From the NCBI GenBank assembly GCA_947478005.1, contig CANJVG010000024.1, positions 1-35,626 on the forward strand: a stretch of DNA of 35,626 nt, written 5' to 3'. The position numbers and the translations under genes are program-made. The notes beneath the pieces were generated by a model. It was not told the origin of the DNA. It did no database searches and saw only the letters and a list, made by a program, of their open reading frames with translations. Source of the DNA: Bacteroidota bacterium. GTDB taxonomy: Bacteria; Bacteroidota; Bacteroidia; Chitinophagales; LD1. Shown piece after piece: positions 28,403 through 32,769 of this stretch (positions within the stretch are counted from its first letter, which is position 1; every line of letters begins with the position of its first letter).

Positions 28403-30286
28403 TTACACAATCTCCACCAACGAATCAATCGCCTGCACCTCATCTTTCTCTATTCGCAGATTTTCGATGATGAACTTCTGACGGTCTTCCGAGTTCTTGC
28501 CCATGTAGTAGGCTAACAGCGTTTCCAGCTTTATTCTGTCTTCTACTATCACTGGCCGCACACGCATATCTTCTCCAATAAAACCTTCAAACTCCTCAGG
28601 CGATATTTCTCCCAAACCTTTAAAGCGCGTTATCTCCGGATTGCCCTTCAACTCCTTCACAGCCTTTTGCTTTTCATCTTCGTTGTAGCAGTAGATAGTC
28701 TTCTGCTTGTTGCGCACACGGAACAATGGAGTTTCGAGAATCTTCACATGCCCGTTGCGCACCACATCAGGGAAAAACTGAAGAAAGAAAGTAAGCAACA
28801 GCAAGCGAATGTGCATTCCATCCACATCGGCATCGGTCGCTACTATAATGTTGTTGTAGCGCAGGTCATCAATACTGTCTTCTATGTTCAAGGCATGCTG
28901 CAACAGGTTGAACTCTTCGTTTTCATACACCACCTTCTTCGTCATGCCGAAACAGTTCAAAGGCTTACCGCGCAAACTGAACACCGCCTGCAAATCAGGA
29001 TTACGGCTCTTCGTTATCGAACCGCTGGCCGAATCACCTTCGGTAATAAACAAGGTGGTCAACAAACGGTCGGTAGCCTTTTCATCATTAAAATGTCTGC
29101 GGCAATCGCGCAGCTTCTTGTTGTGTATGTTCGCTTTCTTCGCGCGCTCATTCGCCAGCTTCTTTATACCCGCTATTTCCTTGCGCTCTCTTTCGCTCTG
29201 CAATATCCGCTTCAACAATGCCTCTGCCGTTTGCGAATTCTTATGCAGGTAATTATCGAGGTTCTCCTTCACAAACTCCAGCAAAAACTGCTTCATCGTT
29301 TTGTCCTCACCATGCAGCTTATCTGTGCCGAGTTTTGTTTTCGTTTGGCTTTCAAACACCGGCTCCTGAATCCGCACCGACACCGCGCCCACTATCGCCT
29401 CGCGAATATCCACCGCATCAAAATCCTTCTTATAAAACTCCCGCACCGTCTTCACGATTGCTTCGCGAAAAGCCAGCAAGTGCGTTCCGCCCTGCACGGT
29501 GTATTGTCCGTTTACAAACGAATAAAACTCCTCCCCGTATTGATGATTATGCGTCAGCGCTATTTCAATATCCTCACTCACCAGGTGAATAATCGGATAC
29601 ACTAAATCCGCATTCTCTTTCTTCTTCGACAGCAAATCATACAAACCCTTTTGCGAAATGTAGCGGTTGCCGTTGTAGTAAAACGCCAGACCCGTGTTCA
29701 GGTAACTGTAGTTCTGAATCATCAACTCTACATACTCGTGCATGTAGTGGTAATTCTTAAAAATCTTATTGTCGGGCAGGAACTCGATATACGTTCCGTT
29801 CGGCTCATCGGTCTTCTCCAGCTTATGCTCCTTCGTCAGTTTGCCGCAATCAAACTCTGCCGTTTTCATCTGCCCTTCGCGCACAGCCGATGCCTTAAAA
29901 TAAACCGACAGCGCGTTCACTGCCTTCGTTCCCACCCCGTTCAACCCCACCGACTTCTTAAACGCCTTCGAATCATACTTCGCCCCCGTGTTTATCTGGC
30001 TCACACAATCCACCAGTTTCCCCAGCGGAATCCCGCGCCCGTAATCGCGCACCGTCACCTTCTCCTTCGTCACGGTTATGTCCACCTTCTTGCCGTAACC
30101 CATCTGGTATTCGTCAATGCAGTTATCAATCACCTCCTTCAGCAAAATATAAATACCATCATCCATCGATGACCCATCGCCCGTTTTGCCTATATACATC
30201 CCCGGCCTAATCCGGATATGCTCCAGCCAGTCGAGGGTTTTCACTTCATCTTCCGTGTACCTTGCTTCTACTTGTTCTTTTGCCAT
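28403..30286 (-). CDS. parE: DNA topoisomerase IV subunit B
   Basis: A 627-residue ATPase subunit of topoisomerase IV, which decatenates daughter chromosomes. The GHKL ATPase domain has E51-x-x-x-N55 in [19 protein letters not shown] and [12 protein letters not shown]. The TOPRIM domain has TEGDSASGS (about residue 415) and [10 protein letters not shown]. The opening [22 protein letters not shown] and the DGSSMDDG insertion identify ParE rather than GyrB in Bacteroidota. In many relatives parC follows; here a convergent hydrolase abuts the stop, so parC must lie elsewhere. Start ATG 30286 ([13 protein letters not shown]). Confidence 0.95.
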
Positions 30287-30964
30287 GCTGCAATTATCTA
30301 TTAGTTCTGCGCAACCTATCTGCGCTTCAAAAAAAATCCCGGGTGAAATTAGCGAGGCGCGAATCTAGAATTGCCTTAGAAATCAACAACTGCACTTTGT
30401 TGATAAAAAACAAGACAATGAAAATTATTTGAGCCTGTCCCGACCGAATGTTTAAATGAGGACGGGAGGGTTCCGCGAGGCGCGGGCGGGCTATCCGTTC
30501 CCGCTCTTTTTTTGCTGTATTTTGTCCTCCGCTGGCGGAGGTGGTCCCGCAGCTTTGTGCGGGAACGGAGGTGGTTGTATTTCCTCTTCACTCACAGCAA
30601 AAAAAGGAGCTCCACTACTATCCCTAACCCAACAGCCGCCCTTCACTTTGCATTTTTCCCCTCTACAGAGGGTTGGCAAAATTCCGCTTTGGGAATTTTG
30701 ACGGGGTGTGTTGCATTTCAATCCGTAATCCAAAATCCGAATTCCGCAATCTTCATTCAGTCCCATCAGGACGCCCTATTGATAGAAATAAACGCCTCCC
30801 ATAAAGTTCATTGTATCGCACCCCAGCGGGGTGCCAGCTTTGCAGCAAAACCATAACCAAACAAACCCCGACCCCAGCGGGGTCAAATTTTGGTAGAAAT
30901 TATTGTTGACCTTTTCTTCAAATCCCATCGGGATGGTCTTTTGTTTTTAGCGCGATTAGATAGA
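30287..30964. repeat. Gene-free stretch packed with short perfect hairpins
   Basis: Eight perfect mini-palindromes are visible: 30526-30541 (CCTCCGC-TG-GCGGAGG), 30545-30564 (TCCCGCA-GCTTTG-TGCGGGA), 30659-30672 (CCCTCT-AC-AGAGGG), 30677-30700 (CAAAATTCC-GCTTTG-GGAATTTTG), 30760-30772 (GTCC-CATCA-GGAC), 30818-30834 (GCACCCC-AGC-GGGGTGC), 30870-30884 (GACCCC-AGC-GGGGTC) and 30922-30934 (ATCCC-ATC-GGGAT). Two share the GCTTTG loop; two or three share a trinucleotide loop with C-rich/G-rich arms whose outer bases differ but still pair. This looks like a dispersed REP-like repeat family. Short open frames here on both strands run through the palindromes and are not believable genes. The first 240 bases after parE hold its promoter region, in which I see no clear consensus. 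Confidence 0.75.
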
Positions 30965-31399
30965 CTACAATACTAACTTCAGCAGGAGCGAGAAATCGCT
31001 TTGAAACTTTTCGAGGTCGAAATCTGTAATGCTTTTTATCGTTCTGATTTTCTCGGTAGAAGCTAGAAGAGTATTTAAAATTTCTCTTTTAAACTCAATT
31101 TTATCCAATCCACGCATTCTATCATAATTAAGCTTAACGTCATATTCTAGTGCATTCTCTACTTCTATTGTAATATCATGACCAACAATTTTCCTTTTTC
31201 CATGATAATATTTAGGCTTTCTCTCCTTTAAAAAAAAATCGAACCTAGTTTCCACGCAAATAATCCCTAAGATTAAATCTTTTAAATTTTCACCATAGTG
31301 CATCTCTTCAAAATACTTCTTTAATAAGGTAGAAATTTCTTCTATCCAACTAGACCTTTCAATATCTAAGTTAGTCGTTAGTGCTATTCCTATTTTCAT
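30965..31399 (-). CDS. Small protein resembling bacterial immunity proteins
   Basis: A 144-residue soluble protein starting MKIGIALTTNLDIERSSWIE. It is rich in Lys, Glu, Ile and Leu with a predicted mix of helices and strands and no signal or membrane segment. Size, isolated position and composition are like Imm-type (polymorphic toxin) immunity proteins, and I have a weak memory of Imm44-like sequences opening similarly; treat the name as a guess. No toxin gene is next to it. Its AT-rich coding sequence (many AAA, ATT and GAA codons) contrasts with the C-rich neighbours, which suggests recent acquisition. It lies between two groups of hairpins. Confidence 0.55.
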   Translation of the reverse strand: MKIGIALTTNLDIERSSWIEEISTLLKKYFEEMHYGENLKDLILGIICVETRFDFFLKERKPKYYHGKRKIVGHDITIEVENALEYDVKLNYDRMRGLDKIEFKREILNTLLASTEKIRTIKSITDFDLEKFQSDFSLLLKLVL

Positions 31400-31515
31400 A
31401 TTATCTGAATATTTTATTGCTTTGCCGTTGGTGTTTTAGCATCGCCTCTACAATGCGTCACTAACAATTATTTCCAAATCTAACCTTCCCTTTGTATTTC
31501 CCTCGGCCTTGTGAA

Positions 31516-31653
31516 TTTTGGCGTTAAAAAAATTGTTCTGATTACCGTTAAGAACTGCGCACTGTTTGAGCGCTACACAAACTTCACAATTATGACAAAT
31601 CGTAGCGCGCGAGTTTGCGCAGTTTAGGTAGTCAGAACAATTTTTAGCCAAAA
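31516..31653. repeat. About 138-nt imperfect fold-back (inverted repeat) element
   Basis: Long arms pair across a ~25-base centre: TTTTGGC (31516-31522) with GCCAAAA (31647-31653), ATTGTTCTGATTACC (31532-31546) with GGTAGTCAGAACAAT (31627-31641, one mismatch), CTGCGCA (31555-31561) with TGCGCAG (31616-31622), and GCGCTAC (31570-31576) with GTAGCGC (31602-31608). Small bulges separate the blocks. A 67-residue minus-strand frame over it (31651-31448) with CxxC pairs follows from the palindrome and I do not call it a gene. It could be a MITE-like element, a REP-type element or a structured RNA. Confidence 0.7.
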
Positions 31654-31675
31654 GTCACACAGCCTTGAACTTTTG

Positions 31676-31701
31676 TTTCTTTTGGTTCAAGCCAAAAGAA
31701 A
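31676..31701. repeat. Perfect 10-bp hairpin beside the fold-back element
   Basis: TTTCTTTTGG (31676-31685) pairs with CCAAAAGAAA (31692-31701) around the loop TTCAAG. An overlapping alternative pairing CTTGAAC (31664-31670) / GTTCAAG (31685-31691) shares the loop bases, so the two structures exclude each other. Confidence 0.6.
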
Positions 31702-31725
31702 AAGATAGCATGGAAGACAAAGGTT

Positions 31726-31794
31726 CCACCCCGCTGGGGTGGTAAGCGCACAGCATTCTAAATATACTACCAAGCTCTCACCCCTCTGGGGTGA
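31726..31794. repeat. Two further CCCC-triplet-GGGG hairpins
   Basis: CCACCCC-GCT-GGGGTGG (31726-31742) and TCACCCC-TCT-GGGGTGA (31778-31794) belong to the same shape class as those at 30818, 30870 and 30922. The rest of the stretch up to 31951 is A- and C-rich with no gene I can see; it should contain the promoter of the next gene. Confidence 0.7.
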
Positions 31795-31951
31795 AAACAA
31801 ACACCCTCCTACTCAAAAACTCTCCCTTTTCCCCTCAAAAATATTTCCCCCACCAACCCTTGCACAAAAAAAAACTTTTTATTTCTTTTACACTACAATT
31901 TAAGCAAACAACAATTTCATAACTCACTCTTCTGGTTCTAAACAAAAACCA

Positions 31952-32713
31952 ATGACTGAATTAGAAGGGCTAAAAATCTTCGAAATGGAAACAGGACACG
32001 CAAAAAATGTAGCCAACTTAGGCAAAGCAAAAATCAACATCACAGGTTACGGAGCCAGCTATCAGCCCTCCAATCCCAAACTCGCGATCAGCGCCATCGG
32101 CAGCAAATACACCAACAGCGATGTGGCCGTCAAAGCCGTAGAGCCGTTCCGTGTGCCGTACAAAAATTTCATTGATGGTCGCAAGGTAATCTTCGCTGGG
32201 GTCAACAAACTTTTCACCAGCGCATTCAAAAACCTCAAATCCAGCGATGGCGTTCCCAAAACAACTGTAAATGATGCCTTCACCATCCTCAAAAAAATCA
32301 AAGGCACCAACAAGCCGCCCAAACTAAAAGAAGGCGAGCCCGTTCCCGGTGCCCATTCCACCTCTCAGCAAAGCTACGACATGCGCCTCGCCAATGTAAA
32401 CGAACTCATCGCCCTCTTGGCCAACACCACCCAATACAACCCCACCGAAACCGATATTCAGGTTTTAGCCCTCAAAGCCTTTGCCGAAGACCTTCAAAAA
32501 GCCAACGACAAAGTAGCCGAAACCTACCAACCCTTCTCCGAAGCCCTCAAAAACCGCGACATCGAACTCTATTACCCCGAAACCGGCCTCTACGACATAG
32601 CTGCCAAACTCAAACTCTATGTCTCCAGCATCACAGCCCTTTCCGCCACCGACAAAAAGCTCATCACCTCCCTCAAATTCACCAAACCGTCCAAAAAGTT
32701 CCTGCACTTCTAA
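31952..32713 (+). CDS. Unrecognised 253-residue protein, C-rich coding strand
   Basis: A soluble protein without signal peptide or membrane segment. It starts MTELEGLKIFEMETGHAKNV and ends KFTKPSKKFLHF. The middle has a Lys-rich turn (KKIKGTNKPPKLKEGEPVPG), and the C-terminal half is mostly predicted helix (ETDIQVLALKAFAEDLQKAN, then YDIAAKLKLYVSSITALSA). Similar length, Lys-rich, helical hypothetical proteins are common in Bacteroidota, but I know no function. Codon use is unusual: 32401-32460 on the coding strand has 26 C against 6 G. It is monocistronic, with hairpins upstream and a strong terminator 22 bases after its stop. Confidence 0.75.
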   Translation: MTELEGLKIFEMETGHAKNVANLGKAKINITGYGASYQPSNPKLAISAIGSKYTNSDVAVKAVEPFRVPYKNFIDGRKVIFAGVNKLFTSAFKNLKSSDGVPKTTVNDAFTILKKIKGTNKPPKLKEGEPVPGAHSTSQQSYDMRLANVNELIALLANTTQYNPTETDIQVLALKAFAEDLQKANDKVAETYQPFSEALKNRDIELYYPETGLYDIAAKLKLYVSSITALSATDKKLITSLKFTKPSKKFLHF

Positions 32714-32734: not shown

Positions 32735-32769
32735 AATAAAAAATGCCCCATTTTGGGGCATTTTTTATT
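32735..32769 (+). terminator. Strong intrinsic terminator with a 16-bp perfect stem
   Basis: AATAAAAAATGCCCCA (32735-32750) pairs perfectly with TGGGGCATTTTTTATT (32754-32769) around a TTT loop. Its A-tract and T-tract make it symmetrical, so it can also stop transcripts from the right. Confidence 0.9.

Follow-up and report, generated by a model that had tools for sequence, protein, structure and literature searches.

The repeat island and its families

This locus raises the question of whether the small palindromes crowded around an orphan gene belong to one structured family and, beyond that, what kind of element they represent. The window analysed here (35,626 nucleotides) spans one entire contig of G000, a draft genome of 4.0 Mb, and the region in question, 30456-31800, lies between a gene for a type II topoisomerase subunit (28403-30286, minus strand) and an uncharacterised gene (31952-32713, plus strand). 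The first-pass annotation had claimed at least ten perfect palindromes within 1.3 kb, among them hairpins with the triplet loops AGC, AGC, ATC, GCT and TCT under paired outer bases and two hairpins with a GCTTTG loop. With a criterion of stem at least 6 and loop 3-8, and counting two further hairpins with 5-bp stems, we located about ten (Table 1), the triplet loops as described and the GCTTTG loops at 30545-30564 and 30677-30700; the hairpin at 31074-31093 consists of A and T only and lies within the orphan gene. GC hairpins (stem at least 5, loop 3-5) number 6 in 30526-31794 compared with 0.2 in dinucleotide shuffles, whereas the window outside 30400-32000 shows no comparable excess (9 versus 6.9).

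The same annotation had treated the palindromes as a single family. Judged by flanking sequence and by copies elsewhere, they instead belong to four or more unrelated families crowded together in a single intergenic repeat island, and we therefore dropped that reading. In the window the triplet-loop family is restricted to 30760-30936 and 31726-31794, two arrays of opposite orientation that do enclose the orphan gene, as had been proposed. Just past the end of the right-hand gene (32713), a perfect 16-bp hairpin with a triplet loop and A/T-rich arms (32735-32769) resembles a terminator.

Table 1. Features of the repeat island, in window coordinates
Feature	Position	Strand	Remarks
Perfect hairpins	30526-30541, 30545-30564, 30677-30700, 30818-30834, 30870-30884, 31074-31093, 31676-31701, 31726-31742, 31778-31794		
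5-bp-stem hairpins	30659-30672, 30922-30934		
Flavo-1 RNA candidate (RF01705)	30480..30633	-	39.8 bits, curated cut-off 42
F2 hairpin-pair repeat	30516..30582	+	inside Flavo-1 loop; hairpins 30526-30541, 30545-30564
Second F2 copy	30649..30718	+	hairpins 30659-30672, 30677-30700 (loop GCTTTG)
Four-hairpin array	30760..30936	+	hairpins ~30760-30772 (decayed), 30818-30834, 30870-30884, 30922-30934
GTAG	30893..30896	+	between third and fourth hairpin of the array
Orphan gene, 144 aa	30965..31399	-	between two oppositely oriented arrays
F4 hairpin, TTGTTAGTGACGCAT...GATGCTAAAACACCAAC	31421..31492	-	elsewhere before unrelated ORFs
F3, ~200-nt structured element	31499..31704	-	hairpin 31676-31701, long covarying arms, conserved internal loop
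F3 conserved core, AAACTCGCGC ... GCGCTCAAACA	31563..31616	-	
Inverted hairpin doublet	31726..31794	-	hairpins 31778-31794 and 31726-31742; R1 52.3 bits

Triplet-loop hairpins form doublets around GTAG

The triplet-loop hairpins are organised as doublets of about 68 nt, in which hairpin 1 is followed by 7-9 nt, GTAG(A/T)A, about 20 nt and hairpin 2, with stems of 5-7 bp and loops of 3-4 nt. Hairpins of the plus-strand array are spaced by about 59, 51 and 51 nt; the last gap holds the GTAG, while the earlier gaps hold GATAG near 30781 and GCAG near 30842. The minus-strand doublet has its GTAG as CTAC at 31767-31770 on the plus strand. R1, a covariance model built on the doublet, matches the plus array at 30758-30834 (20.8 bits), 30869-30936 and 30818-30885. 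Spacing and intervening GTAG together define the unit better than a lone hairpin does.

A check of genome-wide frequency, suggested by the first-pass annotation, bore the motif out. The sequence ACCCCNNNGGGGT has 7 sites in the 4.0 Mb genome (reversed control 0), 4 of them in the window; six of the seven are paired at 51-52 nt, in the window and at a second locus. For TCCCNNNGGGA we counted 26 genome sites versus 9 in the control. R1 finds 16 matches in the genome when filtered strictly and 17 when the filters are relaxed; counting this genome, 41 of 60 have at least one match, and R1 counts are highest in G010 (at least 80) and G030 (at least 79), with up to 85 candidates scored. It is next to impossible that the hairpins are chance palindromes. 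In favour of chance, several genomes have no excess of a loose TTCTAC pattern over the control (6 versus 9 in G006, 2 versus 6 in G023), but the counts of ACCCCNNNGGGGT, TCCCNNNGGGA and GC hairpins exceed theirs, and on these grounds, together with the doublet counts, we excluded it.

The covariation claimed for the stems was also found. In 26 aligned doublets, mostly picked by a hairpin finder and so biased toward pairing, both-side changes numbered 53 where shuffles gave 15.3 ± 3.9; of the stem cells, 86.8% were paired, compared with 40-53% when partners were slid. Coarser measures stayed near the shuffles (8 versus 6.4 pairs with both-side changes; 18 versus 17.3 further pair types). Two rows of alignment A1, G013b and C22, were omitted from alignment A2. 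The positional bias that the annotation had proposed to look for is pronounced: doublets avoid genes, and of the 17 copies in the window's genome 5 fall within mechanical ORFs of at least 100 aa, compared with 3483 of 4000 random intervals.

Such a distribution would also be expected of RNA signals, whether terminators, stabilisers of 3' ends or sites of processing, selected at gene ends without any transposition, the more so as small-loop GC hairpins are stable as RNA and covariation is as compatible with RNA as with single-stranded DNA. We regard this as decidedly unlikely, since a spacing of 49-53 nt with a central GTAG, the use of both orientations and the association with one transposase clade described below are unexpected for terminators, and since no T run directly follows the triplet-loop hairpins in the window.

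Doublets adjoin Y1 transposase genes of subclass 1.2

Matches to a loose doublet pattern adjoin five genes of the Y1 transposase family PF01797, which has matches in 48 of the 60 genomes, own included. The genus has 61 PF01797 matches, of which we examined 37, for the most part high-scoring ones plus these five, which were noticed first. After the catalytic Tyr region, 31 of these loci carry Q..HH and five carry NP, and one (L237) has a frame broken by N and was left out of the 31 genes. The 31 loci fit subclass 1.2 of TnpA_Y1 (Y---Q--HH, about 148 aa).

Within 400 bp of the 31 subclass-1.2-like genes lie 89 GC hairpins, where shuffles give 6.6 ± 2.5 and never more than 13; at least one is present at 26 of the loci, and 16 have them on both sides. 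Removal of the five first-noticed loci leaves 64 GC hairpins and at least one at 21 of 26 loci, a count set against no new shuffle. By contrast, the five NP-type (subclass-2.6-like) loci have 0 versus 0.6 in shuffles, and 20 arbitrary stretches of the genus have 11 versus 11.4. Among the gaps between neighbouring hairpins at Y1 loci, 49-53 nt forms the largest cluster (12 of 52).

Across genomes, doublets and transposases tend to go together. Taking at least 60 bits, our own cut, as a strong Y1 hit and tallying genomes by hand, we found at least three doublets in 24 of 33 genomes with such a hit and in 6 of 27 without (Fisher p = 2e-4, kinship among genomes ignored), while 9 of the 33 have a strong hit and fewer than three doublets. 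The window's own genome has two strong Y1 genes, L205 and L206. Hairpins beside L205 have an 8-bp stem and a TAAA loop and no R1 match, and those beside L206 have 5-nt loops and R1 matches of 19-34 bits, four in the scan of the loci against five on the tree label. Because both sets differ somewhat from the window's hairpins, the cognate enzyme of its exact units may be absent from the genome.

One transposase clade carries the doublet

We ran R1 over the genus Y1 loci, eight Y1 loci of other genera and 20 arbitrary stretches. When the 31 proteins are placed in a tree, one clade (split support 0.926) has R1 matches at 13 of its 14 loci, and the 17 loci outside it have none; the clade locus lacking a match, L232, is at a contig end. 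Seven of the 14 clade loci contributed training rows to R1, and 6 of the 7 that were absent from training match. There was no match in the 20 arbitrary stretches or at the five NP-type loci. Other clades bear different hairpins, for instance 8-bp stems with TAAA loops. In other genera R1 matches 5 of the 8 Y1 loci (L331, L332, L340, L341 and L344), or 4 of 7 without the training locus L341, and lacks a match at L339, L342 and L343.

The upstream doublet closest to the gene start is no more than about 120 nt away from it at 13 clade loci, in the orientation of the gene at 8 and opposite to it at 5. R1 matches flank both sides of 10 of the 13 genes within the stretch fetched, and at 6 of the 13 a same-orientation upstream doublet is combined with an inverted downstream one, as in the window.

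These arrangements bear on whether doublets and transposase genes merely co-occupy intergenic repeat islands, with something else moving the doublets. Several repeat families do lie side by side in such islands, and six genomes have at least three doublets yet no strong Y1 hit (G012, G017, G029, G053, G055 and G057). Shared occupancy is nevertheless very unlikely in view of the closeness of the upstream doublet to the gene start at the clade loci and the absence of R1 from the NP-type and out-of-clade loci. We conclude that the triplet-loop hairpins are probably REP-like, non-autonomous doublets for which a subclass-1.2 transposase of the Y1 (HUH) type does the copying in trans.

By analogy with the biochemistry of IS200/IS605 and RAYT enzymes, we infer hairpin binding by the transposase, cleavage in the vicinity of GTAG and movement of the unit. 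Replication would leave a strand single, the hairpins would fold in this single-stranded DNA, the Y1 enzyme would bind them and cut near GTAG, and the doublet would leave as single-stranded DNA and be joined at another site. The one pair of orthologous sites compared, in G014 and G015, has a doublet in both genomes, and neither an empty site nor an excision turned up. For the window itself the G004 orthologue of the right neighbour has a different insert upstream, with the left flank unmatched in that stretch, so that this site tells neither way.

Relation to REPs, RAYTs and IS200/IS605

The first-pass annotation had suggested REP-like elements moved by a RAYT-type transposase. What stood is the REP-like part: triplet-loop doublets flank Y1 genes, follow one clade, covary and avoid genes. 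What differs is the enzyme class and the layout, and the other palindromes are separate families. As in REPIN/RAYT systems, going by the portions of PMC3116915 and PMC3733652 available to us, there are short hairpins, a doublet unit, a GTAG and extragenic dispersal, with copies beside a Y1 transposase gene and a hairpin type that tracks transposase lineage. Many short, palindromic, extragenic copies are present, and copies flank a Y1 transposase gene. Canonical REPs, however, have GT[AG]G 0-2 nt from the hairpin foot, whereas here it comes 7-9 nt after hairpin 1, between two hairpins and about 20 nt ahead of hairpin 2. Compared with REPINs, the doublets have short stems (5-7 bp) and loops of 3-4 nt. 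Classical RAYTs, moreover, belong to class 2 (Y...NP), whereas the 31 genes here are of subclass 1.2 with Q..HH.

Subclass 1.2 (Y..NQ.EHH) is described in the accessible part of PMC6006769 as occurring mostly in Cyanobacteria and Bacteroidetes and as related closely to IS200 while lacking both IS properties and REPs, and the table of that paper enters REPs for it as 'no'. Our genes resemble this description in their WQ and Y..NQ.EHH motifs, a mostly DH.H motif, a length of about 150 aa and their occurrence in Bacteroidetes; they differ from that entry, as far as the accessible part goes, by the GC hairpins near 26 of 31 genes. With IS200/IS605, as generally known and as treated in PMC6006769, they share hairpin ends acting in single-stranded form, a Y1 transposase and class 1 membership. 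Most units here are gene-free, and any left and right end pair around a mobile gene would be putative. Two further reports concern the same phylum. The GUCCY-hairpin motif, listed in a table of PMC2864571, has a name and a Bacteroidetes taxon that suggest GTCCC-NNN-GGGAC hairpins, which makes it a lead to a possible relation. PMC11194056 describes RayT genes close to abeS in Chryseobacterium, with no repeats mentioned in the text available.

What is new here is that, in Bacteroidota, a hairpin doublet centred on GTAG goes with transposases of subclass 1.2. It gives this subclass a testable substrate, one clade being linked to a defined doublet, and adds another layout to the REP-type repeats of the phylum. 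A further implication may be that mobile DNA accounts for some of the phylum's 'structured RNA' hairpins.

The orphan gene between the arrays

The orphan gene has a GC content of 31%, compared with 48-49% in its neighbours, and was probably acquired. It has no Pfam or NCBIfam match, and no relatives were found in the 59 other genomes searched or in phages. The sole relative found (L381; 35.9% identity, E 2e-22) is on a mobilizable plasmid of Chryseobacterium shandongense, where it starts 2 nt behind a gene overlapping an RHS-core gene. Given this Rhs region, the orphan gene may perhaps be an Rhs-associated immunity gene.

A low-GC gene enclosed by inverted arrays, in an arrangement that matches 6 of 13 clade Y1 genes, invites the explanation that arrays and gene form one composite transposon that brought the gene in. 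We find this unlikely: the arrangement is absent at the other 7 of the 13 Y1 loci, F3 and F4 intervene between one array and the gene, a second array is not demonstrated at other F3- or F4-linked ORFs, and the comparisons in G004, G014 and G015 turned up no empty site. Arrays of REP-like doublets on either side of a probably acquired gene, amid other repeats, remain our preferred reading.

F3, a structured element with a conserved core

Next to the minus-strand doublet lies F3, a structured element whose conserved internal loop is AAACTCGC/GCTCAAACA. When the 401 nt surrounding it were compared with the window's genome by blast, 36 pieces that cover F3 and adjacent sequence matched at E up to 1, and 27 of these reached 2.1e-4 or lower. 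The same region has matches in 23 of the 60 genomes, some only to the first hairpin. In 32 aligned copies (of 45 rows), pairs 5-30, 14-21 and 43-210 covary. RNAalifold on alignment A3 missed the middle helices, and we therefore tested the arms of each copy with their own and with foreign partners. In 42 of the 45 copies (three lacked clear anchors, and some retained arms were shortened by the anchor rule), own arms paired at -9.9 and -7.3 kcal/mol compared with -3.5 and -2.9 for foreign ones, the own partner being better in 40/42 and 41/42. The loop CTTGAA is predicted to be able to pair with a downstream TTCAAG in a possible pseudoknot; inspected by eye, L134 and L149 alter both sides and keep the pair, and L174 has one kept and one broken.

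A scan of 84,980 species for the core AAACTCGCGC...GCGCTCAAACA returned 87 stretches; among the 80 listed, 33 are from Chryseobacterium, and some, such as L124 and L125, look like chance. An outer stem of at least 7 contiguous pairs is present in 47 of 58 Bacteroidetes-type copies and 9 of 38 others among 96 distinct copies, those 9 including Burkholderiales, Endomicrobium and the Magasanikbacteria copy L150. The full form is common to the window's genus and Chryseobacterium, and the core with other pairing stems is found in Burkholderiales, in a Magasanikbacteria genome and in Endomicrobium, whose five copies differ in their inner stems. Lachnospiraceae copies have an outer stem of 2-4, and, judged by eye, it is mainly the inner stem that pairs. 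A looser pattern gave 20 matches in 13 of 18 genomes (control 0), and in the five genomes it missed the known copies have inserts longer than the pattern allows. Among 18 copies that come from neither the window's genus nor Chryseobacterium, a mechanical ORF of at least 100 aa encloses 8 but not the other 10, and a neighbouring ORF is common to close relatives only.

We favour reading F3 as mobile structured DNA or RNA; that it constitutes a new cross-phylum class of such elements is possible, and we put this forward tentatively. Rfam gave no match at cut-off over F3, in searches of the window and 15 loci (two matches fell elsewhere in the loci), and we found no description of F3 in Rfam or among the papers listed by searches of open-access PMC. 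The scanned F3 loci had no match to Y1 genes with HMMs that work on controls, and a single Chryseobacterium query found F3 on no plasmid or phage except for a 28-nt match in one phage record. By eye, inserts of about 50-90 nt are nested in the F3 copies L028, L029, L030, L034, L036 and L056, ending in ...GTGAATGCGAGGCGCATTT or a long-stem variant, and degenerate tandem arrays of about 22-25 nt lie directly upstream of the copies L025, L027, L029 and L030.

An interrupted Flavo-1 candidate and the F2 and F4 repeats

The leftmost hairpins of the island coincide with a candidate Flavo-1 RNA, a full-length model match that falls 2.2 bits under the cut-off and whose apical loop holds a 79-nt insertion. 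The F2 copy inside this loop has TGTATTT at both ends and the second copy TGCATTT, the ends being set by eye. In a partly alignable stretch, again judged by eye, an F2-like repeat (L325, L326) stands at different places in G014 and G015, which suggests mobility from sequence comparison. The part of PMC9723704 available to us reports that Flavo-1 hits in Flavobacterium psychrophilum are sense or antisense without distinction, many of them outside transcribed regions. F3 and the interrupted Flavo-1 copy point toward mobile DNA without proving it. Rfam matches to mir-737 (25.3, cut-off 60) and D12-methyl (18.1, cut-off 57) we took as chance.

F4 hairpins of the form TTGTTGGTGACGCAT...ATGCTAAAACACCAACAA were seen upstream of unrelated ORFs at L078, L079, L247, L253, L256 and L260-L262. 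A reading of the ORFs behind F3 and F4 as integron-type gene cassettes was set aside after a survey of 19 F4-type sites. An ORF of at least 45 aa begins within about 160 nt downstream at 12 of the 19, so that F4 looks like another repeat that is often upstream of genes; by eye, the linked ORFs include one protease-like and one transposase-like ORF.
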